Source: a virus. Taken from it: a DNA stretch of 22,596 bases. The stretch is from positions 1 through 22,596 of IMG/VR virus record IMGVR_UViG_3300047548_000475, one strand, 5' to 3'. The position numbers were made by a program, and so were the translations under genes. Under the pieces are notes generated by a model. The model was given only the letters and a program-made list of their open reading frames with translations, searched no databases and was not told the origin of the DNA. This document shows positions 1,952 through 22,596 of this stretch, in pieces; the stretch's first letter is position 1, and each line of letters starts with the position of its first letter.

Positions 1952-2022
1952 TATATTACCATATTTATAATAGCATTATAACACGTGAGCTATAGTTTAC
2001 CAGAACTTTCTTGCGTAAGGTA

Positions 2023-3073: not shown

Positions 3074-3083
3074 TATATATTCC

Positions 3084-3947: not shown

Positions 3948-3950
3948 AGG

Positions 3951-4799: not shown

Positions 4800-4867
4800 T
4801 CAATAACCTCTGTAAAATCACAAGCGAATGGTTCTTTTACTATAACTGCTTGTACAAACTGTAACAT
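4796..4867 (-). CDS. Tiny ORF (23 aa) translationally coupled to paralogue A
   Basis: ATG at 4865-4867 opens a 23-residue reading frame beginning MLQFVQAVIVKEP and ending FTEVIE. It has its own good ribosome site (AAGGGA, about 7 bases upstream) and its TGA overlaps the next ATG as ATGA, the same coupling used elsewhere in this operon. It fills the only gap between the collagen-like fibre gene and the three paralogues. It could be a real small protein or a leader whose translation opens the start of paralogue A. Function unknown. Confidence 0.45.
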   Translation of the reverse strand: MLQFVQAVIVKEPFACDFTEVIE

Positions 4868-4879
4868 AGTATTCCCTTA

Positions 4880-8893: not shown

Positions 8894-9126
8894 TAGAATC
8901 CTACTACAAGCGGTCTATCATCCTGAGTCAGCAGGGTCAATCCATCTTGTGTTTGAAGTTCGTACTGTACAGTTTGTCGAACTATAAATCTGCCATCTTG
9001 AGCTATTATAGCATCCTCGCTTTGAGTGAGCAATACATCAAATCCTTCGCCCTGCGGTTGGGGGGCAGGGCGAAGTTTGCGGTTTATAGCAGTGATTGAT
9101 AAGACTAGGCTAGTAAGTAAGCTCAT
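8893..9126 (-). CDS. Small structural-operon protein (77 aa)
   Basis: The protein begins MSLLTSLVLSITAINRKLRP, a short hydrophobic stretch that could be a membrane-active or oligomerising helix, followed by a Gln/Asp-rich part with two similar segments, VLLTQSEDAIIAQDGRFIV and LQTQDGLTLLTQDDRPLVV. The internal similarity (TQ..D...AQDGR/ TQDDRPLV) suggests a small beta repeat. Both ends use TAATG overlaps with neighbours, showing tight coupling with the fibre gene. I do not recognise the family. Confidence 0.7.
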   Translation of the reverse strand: MSLLTSLVLSITAINRKLRPAPQPQGEGFDVLLTQSEDAIIAQDGRFIVRQTVQYELQTQDGLTLLTQDDRPLVVGF

Positions 9127-9467
9127 TACTCGCGCTCACTTATATACACTATTCCTTCGCTACCATCTAAGCCGATTACTGAAATATACTTGGAGTTTTG
9201 AGAAGCTACTAACTCTGCTCCTAACGATAAGTCCATGTAAACTCCGGCAGGTAGGATATGTGAGTTACTATCGTTAGCGGTTACAGTATCGTCACCTAAC
9301 TCAAATAAACAATTGTCAGTGCTATACACAGATACTACGCGAGTAGAAATGCTAAAAGCGCTACTTCTAATAGCTGCTGCACCAAATGAAATAGTTTGAC
9401 CACCGTGTAGTCTATAGCTTAGAACTGGGATAGCAGCATTGCCATCGTCGCGAGGTTGTTTGCTCAA
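9126..9467 (-). CDS. Small beta-rich virion protein (113 aa), TTG start
   Basis: The frame starts at TTG (9465-9467), five bases after a perfect AAGGAG, and no better ATG is available, so a TTG start is likely. The sequence AIRSSAFSISTRVVSVYSTDNCLFELGDD....SHILPAGVYMDLSLG and KYISVIGLDGSEGIVYISE follows a pattern I know from small phage structural or decoration proteins: a beta-sandwich with an LPAG turn and a C-terminal strand. It sits between the 68-aa gene (9-bp gap) and the 77-aa gene (TAATG overlap). The precise role is unknown. Confidence 0.7.
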   Translation of the reverse strand: MSKQPRDDGNAAIPVLSYRLHGGQTISFGAAAIRSSAFSISTRVVSVYSTDNCLFELGDDTVTANDSNSHILPAGVYMDLSLGAELVASQNSKYISVIGLDGSEGIVYISERE

Positions 9468-9476
9468 GACTACTCC

Positions 9477-9683
9477 TTATTCAGGCTGATTTTTTAGTGA
9501 CTCCACAAGCATGTTCATAAAAGCTTCGCGCCCTACGCGTAGTTGTGTCAGTCCAAAATCTGCCGCATTGATTTTTACGTCTAAATCTGCAACATGGTTG
9601 ATTAGAATTTTTTGTTCGTCATTTAGTTGGTCTGCGGTGTAATCAACACCATTAATAGTAATAGTTTGGTTTTTAGTATCCAT
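9477..9683 (-). CDS. 68-aa protein resembling DUF6447-type phage proteins
   Basis: I chose the ATG at 9681-9683 because AGAGGGA lies just upstream; the longer frame to 9749 would run through the promoter and inverted repeat. The protein has TITINGVDYTADQLNDEQK followed by a helical part (LINHVADLDVKINAADFGLTQLRVGREAFMNML). The order 'TINGxxYxxxxL' then a two-helix tail recalls small DUF6447 proteins common in aquatic phages (from memory, not searched). It is the first gene after the internal promoter. Function is unknown. Confidence 0.7.
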   Translation of the reverse strand: MDTKNQTITINGVDYTADQLNDEQKILINHVADLDVKINAADFGLTQLRVGREAFMNMLVESLKNQPE

Positions 9684-9704
9684 TTTTTCCCTCTTTATAT
9701 AGTT

Positions 9705-9740
9705 ACGCACTATAGTAGCAATGATACTACTATAGTGCGT
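9705..9740. promoter_or_regulatory. 14-bp perfect inverted repeat around a -10 element (putative operator)
   Basis: Arms ACGCACTATAGTAG (9705-9718) and its exact reverse complement (9727-9740) flank an 8-bp centre that holds the -10 hexamer of the minus-strand promoter. Each arm itself contains the 8-bp palindrome ACTATAGT. Because transcription would begin inside the far arm, the repeat is better read as a DNA operator than as an mRNA terminator hairpin, although a stem-loop terminating the upstream transcript cannot be excluded. Confidence 0.6.
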
Positions 9741-9749
9741 TATTGTCAA
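9721..9749 (-). promoter_or_regulatory. Sigma70-type promoter inside the structural operon
   Basis: Reading the minus strand, TTGACA (9744-9749) is followed by exactly 17 bp and TATCAT (9721-9726). This is the best consensus promoter in the window and lies about 40 bp before the 68-aa start codon. It would drive the fibre half of the structural operon separately from the genes upstream. The overlapping inverted repeat suggests control by a dimeric regulator. Confidence 0.65.
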
Positions 9750-9777
9750 TTAAAATAATACAACAGAGCACTAATGC

Positions 9778-10194
9778 TTATACGGCTGCATATGTTCTAA
9801 AAAAGTCATCAATCTCAGACTCAGTTTTTCCTTCAGCGCTAGCTAGAGCCGCTACTAGTGAGTCAGCACGATAAATTGCTGAAGGTCGAGTAGCGCGAGC
9901 ACGAGCTATAAACTGTTGATTAGTTGGTAGAGAAGCGATTAGTGTTTCAACCGCACTCGGTAGAGTGCCGACGAGCCATGCTTCTCCTTCTGGCTGCGTA
10001 ATCCAAGTCTCCATCACTAGCCCGATTAGTAGCTGTGCAAAAGTAATACTCTCTGGCACAGGCTCAGGTACTACATCTGCAGGTTCTATAGTCACGCCGT
10101 CTGGAACAGACGTAGCGAGCATTGACATACGAGAAATTCCGTCGTCATCAATTACTGCTACTACTGTATCGTTAATATATTTATAAGTTGTCAT
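9778..10194 (-). CDS. 138-aa phage protein between the two fibre transcription units
   Basis: The start ATG has CGGAG six bases upstream. The N-terminus (TYKYINDTVVAVIDDDGISRMSM, then a Pro/Val linker PADVVPEPVPES) looks like a small beta module; the C-terminus is helical (FAQLLIGLVMETWITQPEGEAWL through EIDDFFRTYAAV). It directly follows the 1536-aa fibre gene, the usual place for a fibre-assembly protein or accessory chaperone, but I see no signature proving that. The 28-bp gap after it leads to the internal promoter. Confidence 0.65.
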   Translation of the reverse strand: MTTYKYINDTVVAVIDDDGISRMSMLATSVPDGVTIEPADVVPEPVPESITFAQLLIGLVMETWITQPEGEAWLVGTLPSAVETLIASLPTNQQFIARARATRPSAIYRADSLVAALASAEGKTESEIDDFFRTYAAV

Positions 10195-10210
10195 AATTTA
10201 CTCCGTTAGT

Positions 10211-13200
10211 TTATAATCCAGCACCTGCTGCAGAGCCTAGAGAAGAACCTTGTCCAGCAGTAAGTACAGCTGTTGAAAGAGTTATTTGTGTCATAGCCGT
10301 CATATAAGTAGCCTGAACAAAGGTTGGCACGTTTACAGAAGCTGCACCAGTGGCTAAGTAGTATACGGCGTACTGACTTCCAGTACCGCTCTGCTCAAGT
10401 GCTGTAGGAGGTATTCTCATTCTAACAGGGAAGTTAGTCAATCCTATAGCGTTAGTTGTAGAGGTATTATGACCAATTGCAAATCTTGCGTTACCGTTAT
10501 CTGCAGTTACACGGTAGTAATAACGATAACATTTATCAAGTTCGTCGACAACACTTTTTTGGCGATATAGTAGAGTATCAGCTGTATTCCATACGCCTTC
10601 ACGAATATGTATACCCCAGAAGTCGACGTCAGTAGTTTGGAGACCAAGAGAGTTAGTACGTGCGTTAAAGTCGCTACCTGCAGAAGTCCAGAATAAAATA
10701 CCAAACCAATCATTACCAGCAGTGCCTAAAGTTTTTCCAGAGATAGATGGGACTGTCATTACTGCTGCAAATGGTGTCCAAGAAGTTGTTAACGCAATAG
10801 TAGTTGGTGAGGAAGTAGCTACGCCTGCAGAAGGAGTACCTCCTGTACCAAAATTCTGATAGCCTTCAATTACTATGTTACCAGCAGTAGCTCGCTTTGC
10901 CCAACCTAGGATAGTAATTGTTTGGCCAGCATATGAGCGTACACCTTCTATACGTTGTGCTGTTATTGCATATTGTGAAGTGAGTGTTTGTCCGGTTACG
11001 CTTTGACGCAAGAAGTATAGAGGGCTATTCATGCCTAGCGTATCTCCAACCGTAAAAGATTGACGAGAGTGTGTAACAGTACCACCAGTTATTTCGTTGA
11101 CCCAGCGATCTGCCGCTCCATAACCTGAAACAGTAGAGCTAGCACCGCGCTGCCAAATATCAAAGCCACCATTAATAATACGATCTTCTTCTGTATCAAG
11201 AGGAATACGAGGAACCCAAGCTGTACCGTCATACCCTTCTTCACGAGAAGTTGTAGTGTTGTATATTACAAGTCCCGCAGCAGGCGATGAAATCGCATTG
11301 CGTTGGGTAGTAGTCATGCGAGGAGGTAAGAAGCCTTTGTTACTTGATGTTACGTCTAGTACAGCAGAAGCCGCAGGAGTAGCACCAATTCCTAGGGAAC
11401 CAGCACTAGTTAAACGCATAAGCTCAGTAGAAGCTCCATAACCAAAAACAGTATCAGTTGTATTAAAACCGATATAACCCATATCAGTTGAATCTACACG
11501 TCTTTGAATACGAGTTTCAGAAGTTGTATGAGAAGTTCCTGTAGCATTTCTGTAGCTTAGAATGCGTAAGCTACTAACGTTAGCATCAGTGGCACCAAAT
11601 ATACTAATTAAGCTAGTATCGCCAGCAGTACCACCTAGTGCCGCACCTCTTACTTCAAGTTTTGCAGAAGGCGCGGTAATACCGATACCTAAGTCACCGT
11701 CTGCGTCGAGAGTCATAGCTTGTGTAAAAGTGATTGCGTTACCAGCAGTGCCGGAGGGGGCGGTAAACCAACGATGTAGGCCTGCCCATTGATCATATCT
11801 AGTGGCAGAGGCTGGTCCTGTACGGTAAATCCAGTTTGTTCCGTTGTAATAGGCATTAGTTACGAGCGTAGATGTGTCAGTTCCTCCACCTGGTGTAGTA
11901 GATATAGCAAAGTTACTAGTCTGTAGAACAGAACCTGCACCGCTCCAAGCACTAGGAGTTATACCAAGGCCTAAGTTACCAGATGAATCTATACGCATAC
12001 GTTCAGTAGATGCTGTCTTAAATAGCATGTGTGAAGTTGCAGATACTGGTAAGCTTTCAACACTAACTGTTAGCGCTTCGTCAGATAGAAATAGCTTAGC
12101 GCCTCCAGTACGAGTTAGTTGAATATTACCTTCTAATATAGATAGTTTCTGTGGAGGAGTAGCTCCCCAACCTATGCTAACGTTTCCGTCAGCAATAACT
12201 CGCATACGTTCAAGATCGTTTGTTGCTAGAAGTAAATCGGTAGACCCGCGCGCGGCAAGGGTGGCTGTACTTGCGGCAGAAGTCAGGAATACATCGCCTG
12301 TAGTGCCAGCGCCGGTACCTAGTAGACTGATGGAAGCAGCAGTAGTTCCGTCACCAATCTGCACGGTTCTTCCAAAAATAGGGGTGACACTAGTTGTACC
12401 GATTCCTACATCACCGTTATTACTAATTCTTAATCTTTCTTGTGGAGTAGCTGTACCGTCTGGTGTAGTGAAGAATGCTAAACGACCTGGCATATCGTTA
12501 GTACCTGGAGTACCATCGACAGAGGCAACAATTTGAGCTGCTTGTATAAGACCTGTGCCATCGGCACCTAAGAAGTTAATTACGCCGATTTGATCACCAC
12601 TAGTTACTGCAGTAACAGCTCCTAGAGCTGCTCCTCGTGATTTAGCTAGGTATATACCAGAAGGGTTAACATCAGCACTGTTTCTAGTAGACATTATAGT
12701 GGTGCCAGCCGCAGTAGTACCTTCTAGCTGTAAGTTAGGAGTTATACCGTTACCTACACGACCGGCTGTTGTTCCAATTAGTACTGCACCTGCGCTATTA
12801 ATGCGTAAGCGTTCCGTACCTTGAATAGCAAAACCTAATTGGCTTCCGTTCATAATAAGTGGTTGGTAGGATGCAAATAGTGTAGTATCTGCAGCAGAAA
12901 CAGCTGCACCTGTAAGACCATATGTTACGTCAGATTCAAGACGAATTGAGTGGGTAGTTCCAGCAAATCCAGCAATAGTCCCCGTAGCTCCTAGAACTTG
13001 GAATTTGCGAGTTGGTCCAGTAACACCAATGCCTACATTTCCGTCACTACTGATACGCATCTTTTCTGTACCATTTGTATGTATTACTACCGGTACTGCA
13101 GTTAAACCAGAAATTCTATTTTCAGCGGAGTTACCAAATAATCTAAATTGACTAACACCGCCAGCTTGTAGCTCTAGGACACCTGCATTAGTATCATTAA

Positions 13201-14821
13201 TAGTTAAAGATTTATAGCCAGTACCTACGTTCACAGGAGTAGTAGTATTAAGACCTAGATTGCCCGCACCATCTATACGCATGCGCTCAGTTAGGGCAGT
13301 GCTACCCCCAGCATTTTGTGTGTAGAAAGCCATGGCTCCTGTGTAGTCACTAGCACTAGCTGATGCTTTAAATCCTTGAATTGCTGCAAAACTGTAGGTT
13401 GCTGTAGGGTTTGCTGTTTGTCCTTCAAAAAGAATAGAGGGTCCAACCCCAACACCTGCTGTTGTTGTAGAACGAAGTCTGATGGCGTTAGCCCCAGGGC
13501 TATTAGAAGGTACAGCACCATCAGCCGTAGCGACCGTTAGCATGGATGCTGGAGTAATAGTATTAATGCCGACGTATCCAAAACTGTCAATACGTAGACG
13601 TTCTCCTAGAGTACCGCCAGATTTAGTAGAAAACTTAATACCTGCACTATTAGAATCTAAATTGTGGGTACCAATAGACGCCATTGGAGTAAAGGTGCTA
13701 AAACCCAGCATAATTAGATCATCGTCAGTCGAAGAATCTGTAGAGTAAACAGTTAGTTTTCCTGCTGGACTACTTGTGCCAATACCTAAGTTACCCCCGC
13801 TAGTTAACCGCATACGTTCTGTTAAACCTGTATCTGTAACTGCGTTACGAGTGCTAAAAGCTAAATCACCAGTAGTATTTGTAGCACCACTAACTAATAA
13901 ACTCTTAATAGCAGCCATGCCTAATGAGTTGGCAGTGTCACCTTGAGAGCTTGTAAAGATTATACCACCACCAGTTCCAGCTGCAGTACCTACAGAAGAT
14001 AGACGAAGTAAATCACTACGAGCACCTGCATCAGTTAGGGCAGCAGTAGTCTGCCCAGTACCAATTAATCTAGCGCCTACACGGTTGTTAGTTAGAGTTT
14101 GAGTAACGTTTTGGAAAGCACTAGCTTCAAATCCAACAGCCCACCCATCGTCCCAAGCATCTAACCCTGTTGTAGTATAGCCAAGCTGTACATCAGTAAC
14201 ATTAACCTGTGGATAGCTCCAGGTAGACGCTAGTTCGCCTATATAAATAACACACTTAGAGCTTGTAGCGTTGAATCCAAAACGAACTGTAAAGTCACGA
14301 TCAGTTGCGCTATTGCTGACTATATAAGCACTAGGAGTTTGCCAAGTAGGACCGGTACTATAGTTATAACCACTAACTATAACGTCAAAAGATTCTTGGG
14401 TAACATACTCAAATACGCTAATTCTCATTTTGACCATGTGGTTAGTGTAACCTACTGGTAGTGTAATAGCAATAGCACCAGTTACCGTAGCTGTAGCTGT
14501 AGTGTATGAACCACCTCCAGGAGAAGTTATACGACGATTAGTGCTATCGCGCATTGCAATAGCAGTTGCAACACCGGCTACGTTTGCATCACCTGCTACT
14601 GTTAGCTTAGAGCTTGCAGTGGCTGTACCAATCCCTAGATTAGCTGTACCTCCGTCTAAGAAGAGCGCATTAGCCTGACCTAGACTCTCTATACGAACAT
14701 CTACGTCTAAACCAGCATCGTTGAACGTTAAAGTACTAGGAGTACCATCCGCATGCTGCATTACGTTATTAAGTTTAGTGCGAATGCTACTACCTAATTC
14801 ACCATTGTTAAATGTTGCCAT
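10211..14821 (-). CDS. Large modular tail fibre/spike with repeats and putative sugar-binding C-terminus
   Basis: This protein is 1536 aa. The N-terminal ~90 residues include the first NLGIGTATASSKLTV unit. Residues about 90-250 look like a distinct beta domain. About 11 degenerate units follow a pattern of ERMRIDSSGNLGIGTT.P..KL.V (for example TERMRLTSGGNLGIGTSSP and GERLRIDSFGYVGINT), spaced roughly 70-150 residues apart; such units are common in large phage fibres. At about 1165-1212 is the known GFLPPRMTTTQRNAI..PAAGLVIYNTT linker. From about 1217, INGGFDIWQRG..AADRW opens a jelly-roll-like domain that I associate with carbohydrate-binding modules on fibres. The last ~100 residues could be the receptor tip. 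It starts 3 bp after the tail-tube-like gene. Good candidate for the main receptor-binding protein. Confidence 0.88.
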   Translation of the reverse strand: MATFNNGELGSSIRTKLNNVMQHADGTPSTLTFNDAGLDVDVRIESLGQANALFLDGGTANLGIGTATASSKLTVAGDANVAGVATAIAMRDSTNRRITSPGGGSYTTATATVTGAIAITLPVGYTNHMVKMRISVFEYVTQESFDVIVSGYNYSTGPTWQTPSAYIVSNSATDRDFTVRFGFNATSSKCVIYIGELASTWSYPQVNVTDVQLGYTTTGLDAWDDGWAVGFEASAFQNVTQTLTNNRVGARLIGTGQTTAALTDAGARSDLLRLSSVGTAAGTGGGIIFTSSQGDTANSLGMAAIKSLLVSGATNTTGDLAFSTRNAVTDTGLTERMRLTSGGNLGIGTSSPAGKLTVYSTDSSTDDDLIMLGFSTFTPMASIGTHNLDSNSAGIKFSTKSGGTLGERLRIDSFGYVGINTITPASMLTVATADGAVPSNSPGANAIRLRSTTTAGVGVGPSILFEGQTANPTATYSFAAIQGFKASASASDYTGAMAFYTQNAGGSTALTERMRIDGAGNLGLNTTTPVNVGTGYKSLTINDTNAGVLELQAGGVSQFRLFGNSAENRISGLTAVPVVIHTNGTEKMRISSDGNVGIGVTGPTRKFQVLGATGTIAGFAGTTHSIRLESDVTYGLTGAAVSAADTTLFASYQPLIMNGSQLGFAIQGTERLRINSAGAVLIGTTAGRVGNGITPNLQLEGTTAAGTTIMSTRNSADVNPSGIYLAKSRGAALGAVTAVTSGDQIGVINFLGADGTGLIQAAQIVASVDGTPGTNDMPGRLAFFTTPDGTATPQERLRISNNGDVGIGTTSVTPIFGRTVQIGDGTTAASISLLGTGAGTTGDVFLTSAASTATLAARGSTDLLLATNDLERMRVIADGNVSIGWGATPPQKLSILEGNIQLTRTGGAKLFLSDEALTVSVESLPVSATSHMLFKTASTERMRIDSSGNLGLGITPSAWSGAGSVLQTSNFAISTTPGGGTDTSTLVTNAYYNGTNWIYRTGPASATRYDQWAGLHRWFTAPSGTAGNAITFTQAMTLDADGDLGIGITAPSAKLEVRGAALGGTAGDTSLISIFGATDANVSSLRILSYRNATGTSHTTSETRIQRRVDSTDMGYIGFNTTDTVFGYGASTELMRLTSAGSLGIGATPAASAVLDVTSSNKGFLPPRMTTTQRNAISSPAAGLVIYNTTTSREEGYDGTAWVPRIPLDTEEDRIINGGFDIWQRGASSTVSGYGAADRWVNEITGGTVTHSRQSFTVGDTLGMNSPLYFLRQSVTGQTLTSQYAITAQRIEGVRSYAGQTITILGWAKRATAGNIVIEGYQNFGTGGTPSAGVATSSPTTIALTTSWTPFAAVMTVPSISGKTLGTAGNDWFGILFWTSAGSDFNARTNSLGLQTTDVDFWGIHIREGVWNTADTLLYRQKSVVDELDKCYRYYYRVTADNGNARFAIGHNTSTTNAIGLTNFPVRMRIPPTALEQSGTGSQYAVYYLATGAASVNVPTFVQATYMTAMTQITLSTAVLTAGQGSSLGSAAGAGL

Positions 14822-14824
14822 TTC

Positions 14825-16144
14825 TTAACCACTCCAAACTGCTGCATCATCCCAAAAACCACTATCCACCCAAATACCGAGTGCATAAGCGCTAGTAGAC
14901 TCTGCAAATCTAATTGCTTTTATTGTTAACTCATCTGCCGCACGAGGTGCGGTTTCGTGTGCTATAAAGTTAGCACTTAATCCTAATACATCTTCTACAG
15001 CAATACTAGGATAACTAAAACTTGTAGCTGGCATTTCTGCTAAAAAGTAGGGGCCAGTACGTCCACCAATATAAATTCGAGTATTAGCGTTAACTCCAAT
15101 ATCTTGACTTTCTATTGTGCTTATTTCGCGTAAAAACTTAGAAGAAGCGTTATCACCACTGCGTAAATACATACTAATGCTACCACTGATATTACGCTCT
15201 ACACTATATCCAGTAGCGACATTGTTTATACGACCAAGCTGCTCACGTTCAATATGTTTTATAGCATTGTTATACTCAAAACTAAAAGCAGTAACAGGAA
15301 ACGCATAGGTATTACCGTTATACCCAAGTTCAATTACGCTAAGACGATTCTTAATGTAAGGAGCTGTACTCACGACTCCTGATACGTTCATTCTACCATA
15401 AGGATGATAGCTGCTTTGTCTACTAAGAGTAGTTACGTTAGAGTTTGCGACGACAGTCGCACCGGAGTTTAGTACTCCACCAAATACAGTTACAGCACGG
15501 TCTCTAGGAGCTCCAATTAGTTCAGTTAGCGTAGAACCTTTGCCACCCCACTCAACTGTTACAATCTCACTAATACCAGCATTTAAACTTGCACTATTTA
15601 CAATAGCATTACTTACTTCATATATAATATTATCAAGTTTAAAGTATAAGAATCCTTCTGGACGAGAAGCGCTACTAGAACGAGAAGCGTGTGAGCCTAA
15701 AGCAGCTGGATAAGCACTAGTACTAATCTTACCTTGGCCATACCAGGTAGATTGTTCGCCTGCACCAGCAGGAGCTGTATTAGAAATCAGCGATTGCCAT
15801 AAAAACCAGTCTGCAGTTGGCTTAGCATTACCACTTGAGGTGCTATAAGGACTAGTACCGTTAGGAGCTGTTGGCTGCTCAACTCCAGTAGCTCGTAGAT
15901 AAGTAGTAAAATTCCAATCTACAGGATTTCTACCAATTGTATAGTTTGATACACTACGATCTATAGTATTACCATGCTGACTGTGAGTAATTTGACGAGT
16001 TATAGCATCAGCACTAACAGCAAATCCAGATAATACATCAAGCTTCCAAGTATTAGACGGAGTCATAGAAGTAGAAGCAACAGATTGTAAATCTATGCTA
16101 CTATAAAATATCTCTGAATTACGCTGTAGTTGAAGCTGAGTCAT
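14825..16144 (-). CDS. Tail-tube-like structural protein (439 aa)
   Basis: The protein appears to have two similar beta-rich halves: the segment YEVSNAIVNSASLNAGISEIVTVEWGGKGSTLTEL in the first, and IKHIEREQLGRINNVATGYSVERNISGSISMYLRSG with PATSFSYPSIAVEDVLGLSANFIAHE in the second. This pattern (a domain repeat with strands around VEWGGKG and SISMYLR) is typical of major tail-tube or tube-like proteins in my recollection. The start ATG overlaps the stop of the HTH gene as TAATG. No sheath protein is seen, which would fit a siphovirus, though the window is incomplete. Moderately sure of a tail role. Confidence 0.6.
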   Translation of the reverse strand: MTQLQLQRNSEIFYSSIDLQSVASTSMTPSNTWKLDVLSGFAVSADAITRQITHSQHGNTIDRSVSNYTIGRNPVDWNFTTYLRATGVEQPTAPNGTSPYSTSSGNAKPTADWFLWQSLISNTAPAGAGEQSTWYGQGKISTSAYPAALGSHASRSSSASRPEGFLYFKLDNIIYEVSNAIVNSASLNAGISEIVTVEWGGKGSTLTELIGAPRDRAVTVFGGVLNSGATVVANSNVTTLSRQSSYHPYGRMNVSGVVSTAPYIKNRLSVIELGYNGNTYAFPVTAFSFEYNNAIKHIEREQLGRINNVATGYSVERNISGSISMYLRSGDNASSKFLREISTIESQDIGVNANTRIYIGGRTGPYFLAEMPATSFSYPSIAVEDVLGLSANFIAHETAPRAADELTIKAIRFAESTSAYALGIWVDSGFWDDAAVWSG

Positions 16145-16596
16145 TATTCAAGCAAATCTTTCATTAGTCTATCATAGTTGTTAATCTGCACTGCTACAGC
16201 TGGACCTTTTTGCTGCGGTTTAAGTGTTGTTTCAATATCAGCCAAATGTTTCATCCAGTCAAGAAGGTCTTTCTTTGAATATATGCCAGTTTCAAGAGCT
16301 TCTTGTAGCTTTTGGTCGATAACAGCATTGATAAGTGCAATACGTTTACCACGGTTAAGATACCCTTGAGTAGCGTACACATTATCAATATAGCTTTTTA
16401 CTTCACGCTTTTCAATCACTGCTGTTACACGGTCTGCTGGTATACCATACTCATCCGAGATAACATCAATGCTTTTACCAGCTAGATAGTCATTAGCAAT
16501 ACTTAATAACACCGGGTCTAACGGAGGAGCCTCAAGAGTACGGTTCAGTGCTTCCACAGTTGTACTAGGTGAAATTATGTTTATTTCTTTAGTCAT
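16144..16596 (-). CDS. Helix-turn-helix protein, small-terminase-like (150 aa)
   Basis: I chose ATG at 16594-16596 (GGAAA a few bases upstream) over the longer frame to 16638, which would overlap the upstream gene. Residues about 27-63 (DPVLLSIANDYLAGKSIDVISDEYGIPADRVTAVIEKREV) read as a helix-turn-helix; a helical region (YLNRGKRIALINAVIDQKLQEALETGIYSKKDLLDWMKHLADIE) follows, and the C-terminus has PAVAVQINNYDRLMKDLLE. This order, HTH then helical oligomerisation then a VQINNY tail, matches proteins annotated as phage small terminase subunits as I remember them. Its place among tail genes is unusual for a small terminase, so a tail-assembly or regulatory role remains possible. Confidence 0.55.
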   Translation of the reverse strand: MTKEINIISPSTTVEALNRTLEAPPLDPVLLSIANDYLAGKSIDVISDEYGIPADRVTAVIEKREVKSYIDNVYATQGYLNRGKRIALINAVIDQKLQEALETGIYSKKDLLDWMKHLADIETTLKPQQKGPAVAVQINNYDRLMKDLLE

Positions 16597-16606
16597 TGTA
16601 TTTCCA

Positions 16607-18672
<2,066 letters not shown>

Positions 18673-18680
<8 letters not shown>

Positions 18681-19044
18681 TTATCCAATCAACCTCACAA
18701 ATTATATCACACATGCCATATGGCGACAGTAATCCTTCATCAGTCTCGACACTCAACACACGTGCTTCATAAATCAACGGACTATCTAAACTCTGGATGC
18801 ACTCTTCAATGCTTCTAGCGAGCGCTTCACTTGCGCCTAGCGAATCTTCGTCAGTGAGTACGTATCCACGAACTACAAAACTAAACGAATCGACTGTAAC
18901 TCGATCTCCGATGTATGCACGCTCGACGCTGGGGCGCAACAGAGCGACAGCTGGGAAATCACTCACCTGATCTATGAACCCTGGACCAACTGTTGCGATA
19001 GCGGCTAGTGCCGTCTCAATGATTTCAATTCTTGAACTTAACAT
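18673..19044 (-). CDS. Tail-completion/terminator-like protein, copy 1 (123 aa), first gene of the structural operon
   Basis: Motifs in order: a helical N-terminus (IEIIETALAAIATV), FPAVALLRP, GDRVTVDSFSFVVRGYV, DEDSLGASEALARSIEECIQSL, ARVLSVETDEGLLSPYGMCDIICEV. The RGYV..ED...LARSIE..IQ and TDEG..SPYG.CD blocks also occur in the next gene, so the two are paralogues. I see no Shine-Dalgarno sequence before the ATG; an in-frame TAG four codons upstream fixes the start nearby. Upstream lies the long non-coding junction, so the operon promoter must be there, but no convincing one is visible. The role is inferred from size and layout. Confidence 0.55.
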
Positions 19045-19396
19045 GACTAAGCTTAGCTAATTTGTGCGATATTGTCCAAACTTTTTATTTTAGGGCTGCG
19101 ATAGGGAGTGCGACAGCGTATTTTCATATAAAAAAATTTTGAGAAAGCGTTCAAGGTGCGTTCCACAACTAAGTCTGGCTGTTCTCACGAAGTGATGTAG
19201 GTGGAGTAACGATAGTTATTAGCACGGAGTGCTACCGCGGTGTAACGCTATAAGGATTATCCTTTCAAAGGACTGGCAAACTGCGCTCGGGCGTTTCCAA
19301 ATTTCCCTTATAAAGGCTCTGTGGAGGTGCCCCCTGATTCGCGAATCATGTAAGTCCTCCTAACCGCCCTCCCCCTCGTTGTCAAGCGCAAAAGCA
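19045..19396. other. Non-coding junction between structural block and early-like block
   Basis: No supported gene lies here. Contents visible: an A/T-rich stretch near 19079-19140 (Caulobacter-type or sigma70 promoter not convincing); short stems TCAC-GAA-GTGA near 19177-19187 and AGCAC-GGA-GTGCT near 19220-19232; AAGGAT-T-ATCCTT near 19251-19263; a GGAGG at 19323-19327; the perfect 14-bp palindrome at 19335-19348; and TTGTCAAGCGCAA, shared with the cassette at 20985. It is also where base composition changes. It could hold the structural-operon promoter, an origin or a structured RNA; I could not fold a tRNA from it. Confidence 0.5.
19335..19348. promoter_or_regulatory. Perfect palindrome TGATTCGCGAATCA (two GCGAATCA half-sites)
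   Basis: The 14-bp sequence is its own reverse complement and contains GATTC and GAATC, two GANTC sites. Its half, GCGAATCA, is the same sequence that overlaps the -35 of four of the plus-strand early promoters (GCGAATCG in the fifth), and TGATTCGC appears in the spacer of the promoter at 22077. This suggests a full operator for the factor that reads the half-site. Confidence 0.55.
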
Positions 19397-19416
19397 CTGT
19401 GGCCGTTAGGCCACAG
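19397..19416 (-). terminator. Hairpin at the end of HNH gene 1, stop codon in loop
   Basis: On the minus strand CTGTGGCC and GGCCACAG pair around loop TAAC, an 8-bp stem. The TAA in the loop is the stop codon of the HNH gene. CTTTTG follows a few bases later, a short U-tract, so intrinsic termination is plausible. Confidence 0.65.
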
Positions 19417-19726
19417 GCTTGTAGGGCTTGGCGATTCCCGCTGCTGCATACTTGACATAGCGCGCCCAGTATGCACGGCGCGACTTGATAAGCGCGGGCG
19501 ATTCGGTATAGGTGGCATAGGCGGCGAACACAACCTGAGCGGTCCCTTGCATCCGATTGCACGAGCCGCACAGGCGCACGAAATTTTCTTTCACCATTGC
19601 CCCGCCCTTGGACTCTGCGACGAGGTGGCCGCATTCGTCGGCGTCCCACGTCCCGCACGCGGCGCAGCAATCGAACGAGGCGAACACGTGGGCTTTGATG
19701 GCGGCGGGGATACGGGCTTTGGTCAT
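19406..19726 (-). CDS. HNH endonuclease 1 (homing-type, 106 aa)
   Basis: I chose the second ATG (19724-19726), nine bases after AAAGGA, because the first ATG (19735) touches the ribosome site. Motifs: CCAACG (first zinc Cys pair), CGHLVAESKGG (the His-containing first strand), NFVRLCGSCN (the catalytic Asn region and second CxxC). This is the zinc-ribbon-braced beta-beta-alpha HNH fold, a metal-dependent DNA nicking or cutting domain. The C-terminus is basic and aromatic (RRAYWARYVKY). It is the only minus-strand gene in the right block, has its own promoter facing away from the neighbours, and ends in a hairpin. Free-standing HNH genes of this kind are common mobile elements in phages, but a role in packaging or host DNA cleavage is possible. 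Confidence 0.85.
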   Translation of the reverse strand: MTKARIPAAIKAHVFASFDCCAACGTWDADECGHLVAESKGGAMVKENFVRLCGSCNRMQGTAQVVFAAYATYTESPALIKSRRAYWARYVKYAAAGIAKPYKPVA

Positions 19727-19752
19727 GACGTTCATCCTTTGCTGTTAGAATC

Positions 19753-19781
19753 ACCTTATGCGATTCTTACTTTCGAGTCAA
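19753..19781 (-). promoter_or_regulatory. Promoter of HNH gene 1, GANTC-bearing, divergent
   Basis: Minus strand: TTGACT (19776-19781), 17 bp, TAAGGT (19753-19758), then GATTC directly after the -10. GACTC overlaps the -35 and a third site, GAATC, lies in the spacer. GAATC and GATTC around the -10 also form an inverted repeat. The layout matches the plus-strand family, and the -35 boxes of this and the next promoter are back to back. Confidence 0.65.
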
Positions 19782-19816
19782 CAGCATATCGCGCGGGGTA
19801 GACACAAAGATTCCTC

Positions 19817-19850
19817 TTGCGAATCATTCGGCGCTATGCGATAAAGAATC
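19817..19850 (+). promoter_or_regulatory. Early-type promoter 1 (GANTC family)
   Basis: TTGCGA at 19817-19822, a 17-bp spacer ending TATGC (so TGC precedes the -10, an extended -10), GATAAA at 19840-19845 and GAATC at 19846-19850. A GAATC overlaps the -35. Confidence 0.7.
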
Positions 19851-19879
19851 ATCGAAACGCTGATAGAGGGAAGCGACAG

Positions 19880-20122
19880 ATGGCACAGATGATCGGATAC
19901 GTGGTGCGGGCGACGGACGCGGCGGTGGCTTTCGTGGCCGAGGCCGACGCGGGCAAGGCTGGCGTCAAGCCCCTCTGGATCCCCCGCCGTAAGATTGAGG
20001 CGGCCAAGGAATCGGACGCGATGGGCCGCCGTATCCAGACGGCGCAGGACGGCGAGCGGGTTGGCATCCTGCACAACCTGACCGTGTGCGACGCCTTCCT
20101 CGCCAAGGTGATGGGGGCGTAA
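19880..20122 (+). CDS. Small paralogue 1 with KPLW.PR.KI motif (80 aa)
   Basis: I chose ATG at 19880, eight bases after GAGGGA; the longer frame would include the promoter. The protein begins MAQMIGYVVRATDAAVAFVAEA, then KPLWIPRRKIEAA, and ends LTVCDAFLAKVMGA. It is homologous to the gene at 21093: both have GY.VR.T.AAVAFV, KPLW.PR.KI and .AFL.KV. The fold may be a small RNA- or DNA-binding or protein-binding domain (basic, with Trp), but I do not recognise it. The stop codon lies in the GNRA-type loop of a hairpin. It is preceded by its own promoter. Confidence 0.75.
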   Translation: MAQMIGYVVRATDAAVAFVAEADAGKAGVKPLWIPRRKIEAAKESDAMGRRIQTAQDGERVGILHNLTVCDAFLAKVMGA

Positions 20123-20129
20123 GCCCCCA
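20112..20129 (+). terminator. GC-rich hairpin with GUAA loop at gene end
   Basis: TGGGGGC and GCCCCCA pair around GTAA. The loop is a GNRA tetraloop and its TAA is the stop codon of the preceding gene. No U-tract follows, so it may protect the mRNA end rather than terminate by itself. Confidence 0.55.
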
Positions 20130-20168
20130 CGCAGTTACAAACCGAAGTTACAAATCAAGGTGGAAAAT

Positions 20169-20249
20169 ATGAAACTGTCAATCGCTCTGCAAATCGCCGC
20201 CGCTCTCGTTCTGGTTGCACTCGCCGTCGTCACCTTTCCCGCAATATAA
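20169..20249 (+). CDS. Tiny one-helix membrane protein (26 aa)
   Basis: ATG at 20169 follows AAGGTGG closely. The 26 residues are almost all hydrophobic after MKLS (ALQIAAALVLVALAVVTF), so one membrane-spanning helix is expected. It shares the transcription unit of the 80-aa gene, after the GUAA hairpin, and a new promoter follows at 20278. Too short to name; a signal-anchor micro-protein or a superinfection-related factor are guesses only. Confidence 0.55.
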   Translation: MKLSIALQIAAALVLVALAVVTFPAI

Positions 20250-20277
20250 CCCACTGAAATCACAGCAATCTTTGCTC

Positions 20278-20311
20278 TTGCGAATCGCTTCACGTTATGC
20301 GATTGTGAATC
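20278..20311 (+). promoter_or_regulatory. Early-type promoter 2 (GANTC family)
   Basis: TTGCGA (20278-20283), 17 bp ending TATGC, GATTGT (20301-20306), GAATC (20307-20311). The preceding CTC and the GAATC overlapping the -35 are conserved with the other copies. The -10 is weaker than in copies 1, 4 and 5. Confidence 0.65.
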
Positions 20312-20327
20312 AACAGAGGAGAACAAC

Positions 20328-20432
20328 ATGAACGTCCTGACCGCCCTTATCGGAATTGCAATCGCCTCGCCCTTCATCACCCTTGCAGCGGTCCTGCTGT
20401 TTAAGTTCGTCAACGCAATCATCGGAGTCTGA
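20328..20432 (+). CDS. Small membrane protein (34 aa)
   Basis: ATG at 20328 lies after AGAGGAG with proper spacing. Residues 3-30 (VLTALIGIAIASPF / ITLAAVLLFKFV, read in order) form one long hydrophobic stretch, probably one membrane helix, with a Lys near the C-terminal end. It is the first gene after promoter 2, and its 3' end carries GGAGTC, which serves as the ribosome site of the next gene, so the pair is coupled. Function unknown. Confidence 0.6.
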   Translation: MNVLTALIGIAIASPFITLAAVLLFKFVNAIIGV

Positions 20433-20435
20433 CCC

Positions 20436-20624
20436 ATGAAATTCGCTCTTATTGTCACGCTGTTCGGTATCGACGCCCCCGACTACAGCTATGCGATTGA
20501 TACAAACATGCAAGGGACTGCATGTATTGAGGCGCTGGAAAAGCATCAGGCGTTGCTGGAACAAACGTTCTATCCCGAGGATTTTGAATTGGTCTGCGAG
20601 ATGGATGACATGTTTGAGGATTGA
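20436..20624 (+). CDS. Acidic small protein (62 aa)
   Basis: ATG at 20436 is 3 bp after the previous stop, with GGAG eight bases upstream. The protein starts MKFALIVTLFGIDAPDYSYAID and ends with an acidic tail (PEDFELVCEMDDMFED). The beginning is strand-like, not clearly a signal peptide. Acidic phage early proteins often bind host factors or mimic DNA (family-level generalisation); there is no specific match here. It is followed after the stop by the A-tract and hairpin at 20632. Confidence 0.65.
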   Translation: MKFALIVTLFGIDAPDYSYAIDTNMQGTACIEALEKHQALLEQTFYPEDFELVCEMDDMFED

Positions 20625-20631
20625 CAAAAAA

Positions 20632-20658
20632 CCCTGCTAAATCAAGCATTTAGCAGGG
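20632..20658 (-). terminator. Strong hairpin with U-tract on the minus strand
   Basis: CCCTGCTAAAT (20632-20642) pairs with ATTTAGCAGGG (20648-20658), an 11-bp stem with a 5-base loop. A run of A precedes it (20626-20631), so the U-tract needed for intrinsic termination exists only for leftward transcription. Downstream on the plus strand it is GGGGCCGCGCC. It lies between two plus-strand genes and would mainly block antisense transcription. Confidence 0.65.
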
Positions 20659-20705
20659 GCCGCGCCGCACACTTTAACCCCTTGATTTGCAACGATACTT
20701 TTCTC

Positions 20706-20739
20706 TTGCGAATCAGCCTGCGCTATGCGAAGGTGAATC
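20706..20739 (+). promoter_or_regulatory. Early-type promoter 3 (GANTC family)
   Basis: TTGCGA (20706-20711), 17 bp ending TATGC, GAAGGT (20729-20734), GAATC (20735-20739). The -10 is poor by sigma70 standards, so this copy may depend on the TGC extension or an activator. Confidence 0.6.
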
Positions 20740-20756
20740 AACAAAAGGAGATAGCC

Positions 20757-20939
20757 ATGAAATACCTGCTGCTCGCGCTTCGTTATGACGGAATTATCTT
20801 CACGGCACTTAACTATCGGTTCTGCATCGCACACTACAAGAATCAAGAGCGGCTTGAGAGACAAGCCGCGGACCGGGTCCGGCAAGCTGCTATCGGACGC
20901 TATGTGGATGCACTTAGAGATGCGGGAGATTTACGGTGA
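20757..20939 (+). CDS. Basic helical small protein (60 aa)
   Basis: ATG at 20757 follows AAAAGGAG with six bases spacing. The sequence is MKYLLLALRYDGIIFTALNYRF, a hydrophobic start that may be a membrane anchor, followed by a charged helix (HYKNQERLERQAADRVRQAAIGRYVDALRDAG). A membrane-anchored helical protein is possible. No named family is recognised. It is transcribed from promoter 3 alone. Confidence 0.65.
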   Translation: MKYLLLALRYDGIIFTALNYRFCIAHYKNQERLERQAADRVRQAAIGRYVDALRDAGDLR

Positions 20940-20953
20940 TTCGGTCGAATCAC

Positions 20954-20996
20954 GCGCCAGAATTATACACCCGAATCATGTTCGTTGTCAAGCGCA
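20954..20996 (+). repeat. Intergenic cassette repeat, copy A
   Basis: Starts GCGCCAGAATTATACACCC, continues GAATCATGTTCGTTGTCAA and GCGCAA. It matches copy B at 21342 in about 38 of 43 positions. It is followed at 21023 by TGAGTCTAG and then promoter 4, so it is part of a unit of about 110-120 bp that recurs upstream of two genes. Confidence 0.75.
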
Positions 20997-21035
20997 ATCG
21001 TCGCGTTGAAACAAAACTTTATTGAGTCTAGGCTC

Positions 21036-21069
21036 TTGCGAATCATGCTGACATATGCGATAAAGAATC
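21036..21069 (+). promoter_or_regulatory. Early-type promoter 4 (GANTC family)
   Basis: TTGCGA (21036-21041), 17 bp ending TATGC, GATAAA (21059-21064), GAATC (21065-21069). TGAGTCTAG lies just upstream, adding another GANTC site. Confidence 0.7.
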
Positions 21070-21092
21070 ATCGGAAAAGAGGAGAGACCCAG

Positions 21093-21329
21093 ATGTCTAT
21101 GTTCGGTTACATTGTCCGCGAAACTGAAGCCGCCGTTGCCTTCGTGAAAGCGCCGCTGACGGCTGAAATGAAACCGCTCTGGGTTCCGCGCAAGAAAATT
21201 GCGTTCTTTGAAGAACTGGATCTGCCGTCCATGTCGATTGACATTGCAGGCGAATCGCTTCGCCGCATGGGAACCCCTGTCCACATCGGAATTGACTCGG
21301 CGTTTCTTGAGAAGGTAGGTGTGGCATAA
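21093..21329 (+). CDS. Small paralogue 2 with KPLW.PR.KI motif (78 aa)
   Basis: ATG at 21093 follows AGGAG with eight bases. It begins MSMFGYIVRETEAAVAFVKAP, has KPLWVPRKKIAFFEEL in the middle and ends DSAFLEKVGVA. It is a diverged duplicate of the gene at 19880. The basic PRKK/PRRK cluster next to KPLW suggests a nucleic-acid contact, but this is a guess. Its TAA stop sits in the loop of the 9-bp hairpin at 21317. Confidence 0.75.
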   Translation: MSMFGYIVRETEAAVAFVKAPLTAEMKPLWVPRKKIAFFEELDLPSMSIDIAGESLRRMGTPVHIGIDSAFLEKVGVA

Positions 21330-21340
21330 AAGCCACACCT
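21317..21340 (+). terminator. 9-bp hairpin with stop codon in its loop
   Basis: AGGTGTGGC (21317-21325) and GCCACACCT (21332-21340) pair around ATAAAA, and the TAA in that loop is the stop of the preceding gene. GGCGCC follows directly, then no clear U-tract, so termination would be weak. Confidence 0.55.
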
Positions 21341-21341
21341 G

Positions 21342-21384
21342 GCGCCAGTATTTTACACCCGAATCATGGTCGTGGTCAATAGCA
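21342..21384 (+). repeat. Intergenic cassette repeat, copy B
   Basis: Starts GCGCCAGTATTTTACACCC, continues GAATCATGGTCGTGGTCAA and TAGCAA. It is the counterpart of copy A (20954-20996). TGAGTCTAG follows at 21411-21419 and promoter 5 at 21435. Confidence 0.75.
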
Positions 21385-21434
21385 AAAATCACGCTATGCG
21401 AAAATAAATGTGAGTCTAGACGCGCGTTTTTCTC

Positions 21435-21468
21435 TTGCGAATCATGCGAAACCGTGCGATAAAGAATC
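21435..21468 (+). promoter_or_regulatory. Early-type promoter 5 (GANTC family)
   Basis: TTGCGA (21435-21440), 17 bp ending CGTGC, GATAAA (21458-21463), GAATC (21464-21468). The CTC before the -35 is preserved. A run of T lies just upstream. Confidence 0.7.
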
Positions 21469-21490
21469 ACCGAGACAAGGAGAGACGGTG

Positions 21491-21835
21491 ATGGGCAAGG
21501 CAAAGATTGCAGATACGGTTCGCGCAAAGGTTCTGGCCCGTGACGGGTTCATCTGCCGCGCTTGCGGATACGGCGGTTCGGCAAACCATGCCTTTGCTCT
21601 GGACTGTGACCATATCGTTGCCGAAGTGAACGGCGGCAAGGCAACGGTTGACAATCTGCAATGCCTTTGCAAAGGCTGCAACGTCGCCAAAACTGGCAAT
21701 AACTGGGAATTTGCCAAGCGTGGCGAGTCGGTCGCGGAATCGGTTTGGGCCGTGAATCAGCGTATCGTGTCGGTCGCCTTCACCGTCGGGCTGAAAGAGG
21801 GTTCGGTCGCCAAGACACTCAAGCGGCTCAAATGA
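21491..21835 (+). CDS. HNH endonuclease 2 (114 aa)
   Basis: ATG at 21491 follows AAGGAG; upstream in-frame codons run into the promoter. Motifs: ARDGFICRACG (first CxxC), LDCDHIVAEVNGG (Asp-His catalytic strand), VDNLQCLCKGCNVAKT (Asn and second CxxC). This is a textbook HNH fold with zinc support and a DH pair, as in McrA-like and phage HNH proteins. The C-terminus is helical and basic (KTLKRLK), likely DNA-binding. It is unlike HNH 1 outside the core, so the two are not recent duplicates. It has its own promoter and cassette. Role likely homing or an auxiliary nuclease. Confidence 0.88.
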   Translation: MGKAKIADTVRAKVLARDGFICRACGYGGSANHAFALDCDHIVAEVNGGKATVDNLQCLCKGCNVAKTGNNWEFAKRGESVAESVWAVNQRIVSVAFTVGLKEGSVAKTLKRLK

Positions 21836-21856
21836 GTTTAAAACCGGAGTTAGAAA

Positions 21857-21991
21857 ATGACCTATATTGTGCGGACGATAGACAGGTGCTTTACCGAAGC
21901 GCATTACAGTTGCTTTTCGACTATGGTGCGCGATTGGAGCAGTGAAATTCTGGCTGGCACTCACTATTTTATGATTCTCGGTGCAGAATAG
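21857..21991 (+). CDS. Small protein (44 aa)
   Basis: ATG at 21857 follows CCGGAG with seven bases, giving MTYIVRTIDRCFTEAHYSCF, then TMVRDWSSEILAGTHYFMIL. It lies 21 bp after HNH 2 without its own promoter, so it is probably co-transcribed. Two cysteines and several aromatic residues are seen. No family recognised. Confidence 0.5.
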   Translation: MTYIVRTIDRCFTEAHYSCFSTMVRDWSSEILAGTHYFMILGAE

Positions 21992-21995
21992 AAAC

Positions 21996-22045
21996 TAAAA
22001 AGCGTGCAAAATCAAGGGATTACAGTTAGTCGCGCCCCGACTCGT
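21996..22045. repeat. Degenerate copy of the hairpin/CGCGCC intergenic element
   Basis: TGCAAAATCAAGGGATTACAG followed by TTAGTCGCGCCCCGAC is similar in order to the two strong hairpin regions (TGC.nAATCAAG..ATTA..CAG then C.GCGCC.C), but the stem has lost its pairing except for a short AATC..GATT. It occupies the 3' end of the 44-aa gene unit. Confidence 0.4.
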
Positions 22046-22076
22046 AAGTGACTGATAAACAAAGGAAAGTTTCTAG

Positions 22077-22105
22077 TTGCTGTGTGCTGATTCGCTTGCT
22101 AGTAT
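22077..22105 (+). promoter_or_regulatory. Early-type promoter 6 (variant)
   Basis: TTGCTG (22077-22082), 17 bp containing TGATTCGC and ending TTGC, TAGTAT (22100-22105). The GANTC site has moved into the spacer, no GANTC follows the -10, and the -10 is closer to consensus than in the other copies. This copy may be wired differently. Confidence 0.6.
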
Positions 22106-22130
22106 TAACTTATCAAAAGGGAAAAAAGAT

Positions 22131-22424
22131 ATGCGCCTTGAAACTATCCGTGCCGCCAAGAATGGTTTTATTCTGGAAGATGAATACGGCAATCTTCACG
22201 TTGCAAAGACCCTGATTGAGGCAGCCCAAATTGTTGGTGATATTGTGCCTGATACACAAGGCACTCGTTACGCTGTCGGCATGAACTGCGGTGACTTGAG
22301 TGCTGCTAGGGCGTGTTTCCGCGACGGCAAAAAGATTGAGGCAATCAAGATTTTGCGTGATTGCTTCACCCCGCGTCTCGGTCTGCGTGAGGCTAAAGAA
22401 CTGATTGAGGTTCTCTGCTTTTAG
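22131..22424 (+). CDS. Small protein with ribosomal L7/L12 C-terminal-domain-like end (97 aa)
   Basis: I chose ATG at 22131, after AAAAGGGA; upstream codons of the longer frame overlap the promoter. The N-terminal ~45 residues (LETIRAAKNGFILEDEYGNLHVAKTLIEAAQIVGDIVPD) look like a small beta-alpha domain. The C-terminus KKIEAIKILRDCFTPRLGLREAKELIEVL matches the helix-loop-helix pattern of the L7/L12 C-terminal domain (KI.VIK..RE.TGLGLKEAK.LVE), with PRLGLREAK in place of TGLGLKEAK. In bacteria that domain contacts translation factors. A phage protein using it could act on translation, or merely reuse the fold. The start of the protein is followed downstream by a strong hairpin. Confidence 0.7.
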   Translation: MRLETIRAAKNGFILEDEYGNLHVAKTLIEAAQIVGDIVPDTQGTRYAVGMNCGDLSAARACFRDGKKIEAIKILRDCFTPRLGLREAKELIEVLCF

Positions 22425-22429
22425 AAAAA

Positions 22430-22457
22430 CCCTGCATAATCAAGAGGTTATGCAGGG
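22430..22457 (-). terminator. Strong hairpin with U-tract on the minus strand (second copy)
   Basis: CCCTGCATAA (22430-22439) pairs with TTATGCAGGG (22448-22457), a 10-bp stem with an 8-base loop. An A-run (22425-22429) precedes it and GCGGCGCCCC follows, the same arrangement as at 20632. It directly follows the stop of the L7/L12-like gene. Confidence 0.65.
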
Positions 22458-22504
22458 CGGCGCCCCACTGATTAAGTGTTTGATAATGCTGCGTTTTATT
22501 TATG

Positions 22505-22538
22505 TTGTGCATACTGCATAGATGCGCTATAAAGAATC
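22505..22538 (+). promoter_or_regulatory. Early-type promoter 7 (GANTC family)
   Basis: TTGTGC (22505-22510), 17 bp ending TGCGC, TATAAA (22528-22533), GAATC (22534-22538). It lacks the GANTC at the -35 but keeps the one after the -10. The region upstream (GTTTTATTTATG) is A/T-rich. Confidence 0.6.
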
Positions 22539-22559
22539 AACGCAGCAAAGGAGCTAGAC

Positions 22560-22596
22560 ATGGCAACCGTCGTTTACGCAATCTCTTACAAAGGCT
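22560..22596 (+). CDS. Start of a gene truncated by the window edge
   Basis: ATG at 22560 follows AAAGGAG with seven bases. Twelve codons are visible (ATVVYAISYKG after the Met), then the window ends. It has promoter 7 immediately upstream. Too short to identify. Confidence 0.6.
   Translation, partial: MATVVYAISYKG

Follow-up and report, generated by a model that had tools for sequence, protein, structure and literature searches.

GANTC-bearing early promoters of a T5-like phage probably use the GcrA/CcrM system of an alphaproteobacterial host

The IMG/VR record IMGVR_UViG_3300047548_000475 comprises 22,596 bases, and the window analyzed here covers the whole of it. Its last part, from 19300 to 22596, holds small genes, mostly on the plus strand, with few family matches except HNH endonucleases. 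Upstream of these genes lies a family of promoters built around GANTC, the site methylated by CcrM. We propose that they are early promoters of a T5-like alphaproteobacterial phage, that host sigma70 RNA polymerase would read them, and that it would probably do so with the help of the host GcrA/CcrM system. What they conserve is a heptamer, CGAATCR (YGATTCG in the opposite direction), which matches the published GcrA motif of Caulobacter crescentus (TGATTCG, YGAKTCK; PMC7987155) and so supports the link to GcrA suggested in an initial annotation made from the sequence alone.

Five plus-strand promoters have the form TTGCGAATC-N11-TGCGANNNN-GAATC and match TTGCGAATC-N20-GAATC exactly. Copies 1 to 5 align as cTC-TTGCGAATC-N11-TGC-GATAAA (or a variant)-GAATC, with a ribosome-binding site and then a start codon downstream. 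All five consist of a TTGCGA -35 element, a spacer of 17 base pairs (bp), a -10 element and GAATC directly after it, and their two GAATC sites, over the -35 (site 1) and after the -10 (site 2), start exactly 25 bp apart, just as the initial annotation had it. The elements and their spacing (TTG, about 17 bp, then GATAAA, TATACA or TATAAA) are of the sigma70 type. The -10 GATAAA ends without T, like many alphaproteobacterial promoters, in which the -7 T is often absent (PMC8407463). Copy 6 keeps a spacer site only and copy 7 the second site only, again as first described. The minus-strand copy at 19781-19748 does have GACTC at the -35 and GATTC behind the -10, but the 25-bp register did not hold: 27 bp separate these outer sites, and the spacer contains a third GANTC. 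Two more minus-strand promoters (20991-20962 and 21379-21350) and two palindromic GANTC pairs (19335-19348 and 20938-20951) had been missed. The elements in the window are as follows.

19817..19850, plus strand: early promoter 1, TTGCGA-17-GATAAA-GAATC; GAATC at 19821 and 19846; upstream of the 80-amino-acid gene 19880-20122
20278..20311, plus strand: early promoter 2, TTGCGA-17-GATTGT-GAATC; GAATC at 20282 and 20307
20706..20739, plus strand: early promoter 3, TTGCGA-17-GAAGGT-GAATC; GAATC at 20710 and 20735
21036..21069, plus strand: early promoter 4, TTGCGA-17-GATAAA-GAATC; extra GAGTC upstream at 21024
21435..21468, plus strand: early promoter 5, TTGCGA-17-GATAAA-GAATC; upstream of an HNH gene
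22077..22105, plus strand: early promoter 6, TTGCTG-17-TAGTAT; TGATTCG in the spacer only (GATTC at 22089)
22505..22538, plus strand: early promoter 7, TTGTGC-17-TATAAA; GAATC only after the -10 (22534)
19748..19781, minus strand: promoter of the HNH gene 19406-19735, TTGACT-17-TAAGGT; GACTC over the -35, GANTC in the spacer, GATTC after the -10
20962..20991, minus strand: promoter, TTGACA-18-TATAAT; TGATTCG in the spacer
21350..21379, minus strand: promoter, TTGACC-18-TAAAAT; TGATTCG in the spacer
19335..19348, no strand assigned: palindromic GANTC pair TGATTCGCGAATCA; similar pairs in contigs G001, G003, G004 and L034
20938..20951, no strand assigned: palindromic GANTC pair GATTCGGTCGAATC, just downstream of the -10 of a minus-strand promoter

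The two minus-strand promoters at 20962-20991 and 21350-21379 are near consensus and opposed to the early genes, as is a similar one in contig G001 near 16768; antisense transcripts from these promoters are possible. On the minus strand at 19308-19349, a strong ribosome-binding site (AGGAGG) and an ATG at the palindrome TGATTCGCGAATCA would start a 13-codon frame, MIRESGGTSTEPL.

The enrichment of GANTC is confined to the block of small genes. Positions 19300-22596 contain 37 copies against 13.2 expected (standard deviation, 3.3; maximum of 24 in 300 dinucleotide shuffles), so that the earlier hand count of about three dozen against about 13 survives correction for composition; it also survives removal of the five promoter cores (27 against 12.4 expected). 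The remainder of the window, 1-19299, has 48 copies against 41.3 expected, which is not significant. When all 7-mers are ranked by block versus the rest of the window, CGAATCA comes out on top (11 versus 1). Across the window and its relatives, early blocks have 6.4 to 11.8 GANTC per kilobase (kb) versus 2.2 to 2.8 elsewhere, and 2.0 to 6.7 YGAKTCG per kb versus 0.04 to 0.38, with block limits set by gene order in the window and drawn partly from the GANTC peaks themselves in the relatives. The densest block observed, positions 4300-8800 of contig L034, reaches 11.8 GANTC per kb, mostly as the YGAKTCG heptamer, while Phaeobacter phage MD18 has a weak GANTC block only. In the window and in Rhodobacter phage RcXuper, the excess is strongest between genes.

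The heptamer has no single position: it may overlap the -35, lie in the spacer, frequently at a distance of exactly 10 bp downstream, or fall at the start, and it occurs in both orientations. In the promoters that we call class A, GAATC begins 19 bp before the start of the -10. A second class, from contigs G001, G003, G004, G009 and L034, has ordinary -35 and -10 elements, such as TTGTAA...TATACA, and CGAATC[AG] in the spacer, where GAATC usually begins 9 bp before the start of the -10; the positions in the two classes are therefore one helical turn apart. A third class, with two members in the window, has -35 and -10 elements of the TTGACA/TATAAT type; its spacer contains [TC]GATTCG, the heptamer in reverse orientation, and a palindromic GANTC pair often comes next. 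Relative to the -10 start, the heptamer occurs at -19 to -17, -12, -10 or -9 in either orientation. We also assembled 35 promoters solely by their -10, AATCA[TAC]C and ribosome-binding site, without regard to GANTC. All 35 contain GANTC between about -35 and +7, and control palindromes and control phages score much lower. The GAATC after the -10 is lost in six of the seven promoters that have a spacer site versus none of the 28 others (Fisher p = 4e-6, common ancestry ignored); promoters of one phage are related, and such counts are not independent.

The sequence context of the sites agrees with the extended motif (YGAKTCK/YGAKTCG). Site 1 is CGAATCR in nearly all cases. At site 2, the window group has AGAATCA and Erythrobacter phage vB_EliS-L02 (L02) has CGAATCA, both of which fit YGAKTCK. 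The roseophages have [AG]GA[AC]TCA at site 2, of which the G-flanked forms miss the last K of YGAKTCK. There, site 2 is GACTC (10 pairs) or GAATC (8 pairs) in 18 of 21 pairs; GANTC is therefore kept while its N changes.

The same promoter occurs in several unrelated phages. We scanned 2.9 million viral contigs and recovered it from five others, several with three or four copies. Shared T5-like proteins group four of these contigs (G001, G003, G004 and G005) with the window, and the fifth, G002, is a different phage whose portal protein is 60-62% identical to those of Ruegeria, Phaeobacter and Rhodobacter phages. Relaxing the scan brought in further contigs, one of them the 285-kb jumbo-phage contig G009, with a promoter cluster at 134-153 kb. 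Among cultured phages, TTGCGAATC is present in 12 copies in DSS3P8, 16 in RpAliso and 24 in RcXuper, against 0.7 to 0.9 expected (0.7 in RcXuper); of the copies that lie in early regions, most precede small genes. DSS3P8 and RpAliso grow on Ruegeria pomeroyi, RcXuper grows on Rhodobacter capsulatus and L02 grows on Erythrobacter. The last of these (accession OL955261), initially chosen as a control, has 24 paired promoters in a block at 134-150 kb, mostly TTGACGAATCA-N17/18-CGAATCATCGG, with most sites 24 or 25 bp apart and 18 of the 24 pairs spaced at 25 bp, and eight further IMG/VR stretches bear the same promoter pair.

We compared these groups by a paired-site test (TTG, 1 to 3 bases, GANTC, and a second GANTC 23 to 27 bases on). 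It returned 20 pairs in the T5-like group, 25 in the jumbo phage, 21 in the roseophages, 24 in L02 and 30 in the L02-like contigs, the last of which share sequence with one another. Seven control palindromes gave 0 to 9 pairs and control phages gave 0 and 1; the jumbo and roseophage counts contain some background, as control palindromes reach 8 and 9 there. The promoter is a property neither of T5-like phages in general nor of alphaproteobacterial phages in general. The T5-like relatives G014-G018 have no TTGCGAATC, and Caulobacter, Mesorhizobium, Rhizobium, Ochrobactrum, Citromicrobium and Brevundimonas phages exclude the wider generalization, with one copy each, about the chance number, in Caulobacter phage CcrRogue and Mesorhizobium phage Cp1R7A-A1. 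Two matches in genome contigs (Planctomycetota and Bacteroidales metagenome-assembled genomes) were rejected, being without a conserved -10 and at about the chance number.

Other repeated words accompany the early promoters of some of these phages. RcXuper, RpAliso and DSS3P8 carry GCTTGAAGC or GCTTCAAGC in the spacer of many TTGCGAATC promoters, a candidate operator of a phage repressor. CtrA-like words (TTAACC, TTAACCAT) are 9- to 17-fold enriched in the early block of L02 (OL955261, 134-150 kb), and TTAAGGTTAACC-type words precede early genes of Caulobacter phage CcrBL9 (L122, terminal repeat); L02 and CcrBL9 may also use CtrA.

Judged by its proteins, the window comes from a T5-like phage, a relative of Demerecviridae, and covers part of its genome. 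Its tail genes, on the minus strand, are distant kin of T5-like tail proteins, with one product 23-25% identical to T5-like tail tube proteins, and the syntenic contig G001 encodes a terminase about 40% identical to T5-like ones and a T5-like portal. The window DNA has no DNA match among the phages searched and a single low-value match among plasmids. Alphaproteobacterial hosts are well supported for the phages bearing these promoters, in line with the host group first suggested: cultured Ruegeria and Rhodobacter phages share the promoter, and the G002 portal resembles theirs. The host of the window phage is probably a member of the Rhodobacterales, to judge by shared promoters and gene relatives.

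We infer GcrA binding, methylation dependence and activation rather than repression from the resemblance to known promoters. In C. crescentus, the CcrM-dependent CGACTC is needed between the -35 and the -10 in ftsZ and near the start in mipZ (PMC3708114), and GcrA protects -35 to +7 of methylated ctrA P1 (PMC3667746). Sigma region 2 is contacted by GcrA, whose binding site lies downstream of the -35 (PMC12340889, PMC7403470). GcrA and CcrM would drive the phage promoters too, because the phage sites occupy these same places. Nearly all of the promoters carry one or two CGAATCR heptamers, or close variants, which are CcrM sites in GcrA context; one overlaps the downstream end of the -35 or lies in the spacer, and a second often comes just after the -10. 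Once these are methylated by CcrM, host GcrA bound to sigma70 region 2 would use them and help to open promoters with a weak -35 (TTGCGA) and a weak -10 (GATAAA, with no T last).

The initial annotation had proposed looking for a ccrM or gcrA homolog in the phage, and little came of it. No match to N6_N4_Mtase, and hence no CcrM-type N6/N4 methylase, appears in 16 records, and no GcrA is encoded in the window. Among the phages searched, only MD18 (MT270409) has a GcrA-like domain: a 124-amino-acid protein at 108218-108592, annotated as hypothetical, matches the GcrA DNA-binding domain of 5yiu, 5z7i and 7ye1 over its first 45 residues. The proteins of DSS3P8, RpAliso, RcXuper and DSS3_MAL1 that match it do so only past that domain, which these sister phages seem to lack. 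Annotated cell-cycle regulators of Brevundimonas phages match the domain. The system would therefore be the host's, and ccrM and gcrA are reported in most alphaproteobacteria (PMC2877005).

The strongest competitor, already raised in the initial annotation for a phage regulator, is that CGAATCR is the operator of some other phage-encoded or host protein, which represses or activates the early genes regardless of methylation. We consider this possible but unlikely. Heptamer positions typical of repressor sites, palindromic TGATTCG..CGAATCA pairs near early blocks and the near-invariant N at site 1 preserve its weight as a rival; it is weakened by the sharing of the site among unrelated phages with no obvious common regulator. 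A blastp comparison (E 1e-3) of the T5-like phages, roseophages, jumbo phage and Erythrobacter phage gave no evident candidate, though short or diverged proteins could be missed, and in RcXuper an immunity repressor is annotated and several promoters carry another repeated word, GCTTGAAGC. It is rather improbable that the string is simply the best host sigma70 core, with TTGCGAATC as an extended -35, AATCATCG as a preferred start region and GANTC as incidental. The constancy of the class A string and the occurrence of AATCATCG without GANTC in Rhizobium and Ochrobactrum phages would suit such a core, but the heptamer leaves the -35 for a position 10 bp downstream in promoters with a TTGTAA or TTGCAA -35 and a TATACA -10, it is reversed in TTGACA/TATAAT promoters, and GANTC outlasts changes of N at site 2, with at least one copy in each of the 35 promoters. 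Very little credence attaches to CcrM methylation acting without GcrA, through N6-methyladenine at -6 to -2 that eases melting of promoters lacking the -7 T. Site 2 does fall at the would-be transcription bubble in the inferred register, and a -10 without its final T is common in alphaproteobacteria; the extended heptamer, the spacer sites and the promoters with an upstream site only would still go unexplained.

Several observations weigh against host GcrA/CcrM use. One is the near-invariant site 1, where N is nearly always A and a fixed string also fits. Although GcrA is best studied in Caulobacter, early promoters of its phages (TTGACA...TATGCGAGAAAGG) are mostly without GANTC. Rhizobium and Ochrobactrum phages have TAATCATCG or CAATCATCG as their start region, and part of site 2 may therefore be a general start string; TAATC or CAATC at this place in the same phages also weakens the idea that selection behind the -10 always acts on GANTC. 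Brevundimonas subvibrioides GcrA has no extended motif, only a slight preference for C, and a review argues that control by methylation may matter little in Rhodobacterales (PMC8116508).

Two of the genes behind the promoters deserve a line each.

19880..20122, plus strand: small early gene, 80 amino acids, no family match; product resembles that of 21093-21329
21491..21835, plus strand: early HNH endonuclease gene, with a family match

The first follows promoter 1 and its look-alike at 21093-21329, likewise without a family match, follows promoter 4; no phage homolog of the 80-amino-acid product was found in our search. The small protein of 22131-22424 weakly matches the C-terminal domain of ribosomal protein L7/L12, under the curated cutoff. 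Elsewhere in the window are a 1,337-amino-acid collagen-like protein with GFTGSVG repeats (4880-8893, minus strand), probably a tail fiber, and a tandem trio of similar genes encoding 281 to 287 amino acids (2228-4799). No Rfam element or transfer RNA was found in the window.

The presence of a GcrA/CcrM site in almost every early promoter of several unrelated phages suggests that their first genes are switched on via host DNA methylation. More tentatively, phages of at least two alphaproteobacterial orders may have built early transcription on GcrA/CcrM, so that the methylation state of phage DNA would switch the early genes and link them to the host cell cycle. DNA entering from a CcrM-methylated virion would be fully methylated and would become hemi- or unmethylated after replication, and its state would signal incoming versus newly made phage DNA. 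The hemimethylation timer proposed in the initial annotation would be a further, conjectural step. If this is true, host DNA methylation is an input to phage early transcription across a whole class of bacteria, early expression depends on a host cell cycle regulator, and host stage and virion methylation could set the outcome of infection. CGAATCR-rich blocks would serve as a sequence signature for the early regions of such phages and as a pointer to their hosts, and the promoters would form an extensive natural collection of the GcrA type, in which the sites occupy several fixed positions. The literature searched, which mostly left subscription papers outside, contains no published account of phage early GANTC promoters, including those of DSS3P8, RpAliso, RcXuper and L02; all four carriers are cultured, so the idea is testable now.

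Among the phages compared, the Rhodobacteraceae phages DSS3P8, RpAliso and RcXuper and the Erythrobacter phage L02 resemble the window in their -35 sequence (TTGCGAATC or TTGACGAATCA), in a second GANTC that often follows at 24-26 bp, and in an early block of small genes. They differ in phage lineage and in their -10 strings, and DSS3P8 is mostly without site 2. Caulobacter Bertelyvirus, Rhizobium and Ochrobactrum phages share the start string TATGCGAnAAAG or AATCATCG before small genes, but their -35 is TTGACA or dissimilar and GANTC is mostly absent.

The C. crescentus ftsZ, mipZ and ctrA P1 promoters, like the phage promoters, have GANTC in extended context between the -35 and the -10, beside the -35 or near the start. 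Unlike them, the phage early promoters number in the dozens, often carry two sites at a fixed 24-26 bp, almost always have A as the N of site 1, belong to other hosts and are predicted from sequence. GcrA homologs are known in phiCbK-like phages (PMC3556154). The phiCbK group and the Brevundimonas phages offer a parallel in which alphaproteobacterial phages interact with the GcrA circuit (PMC3556154), there through GcrA proteins and here, as we propose, through DNA sites.

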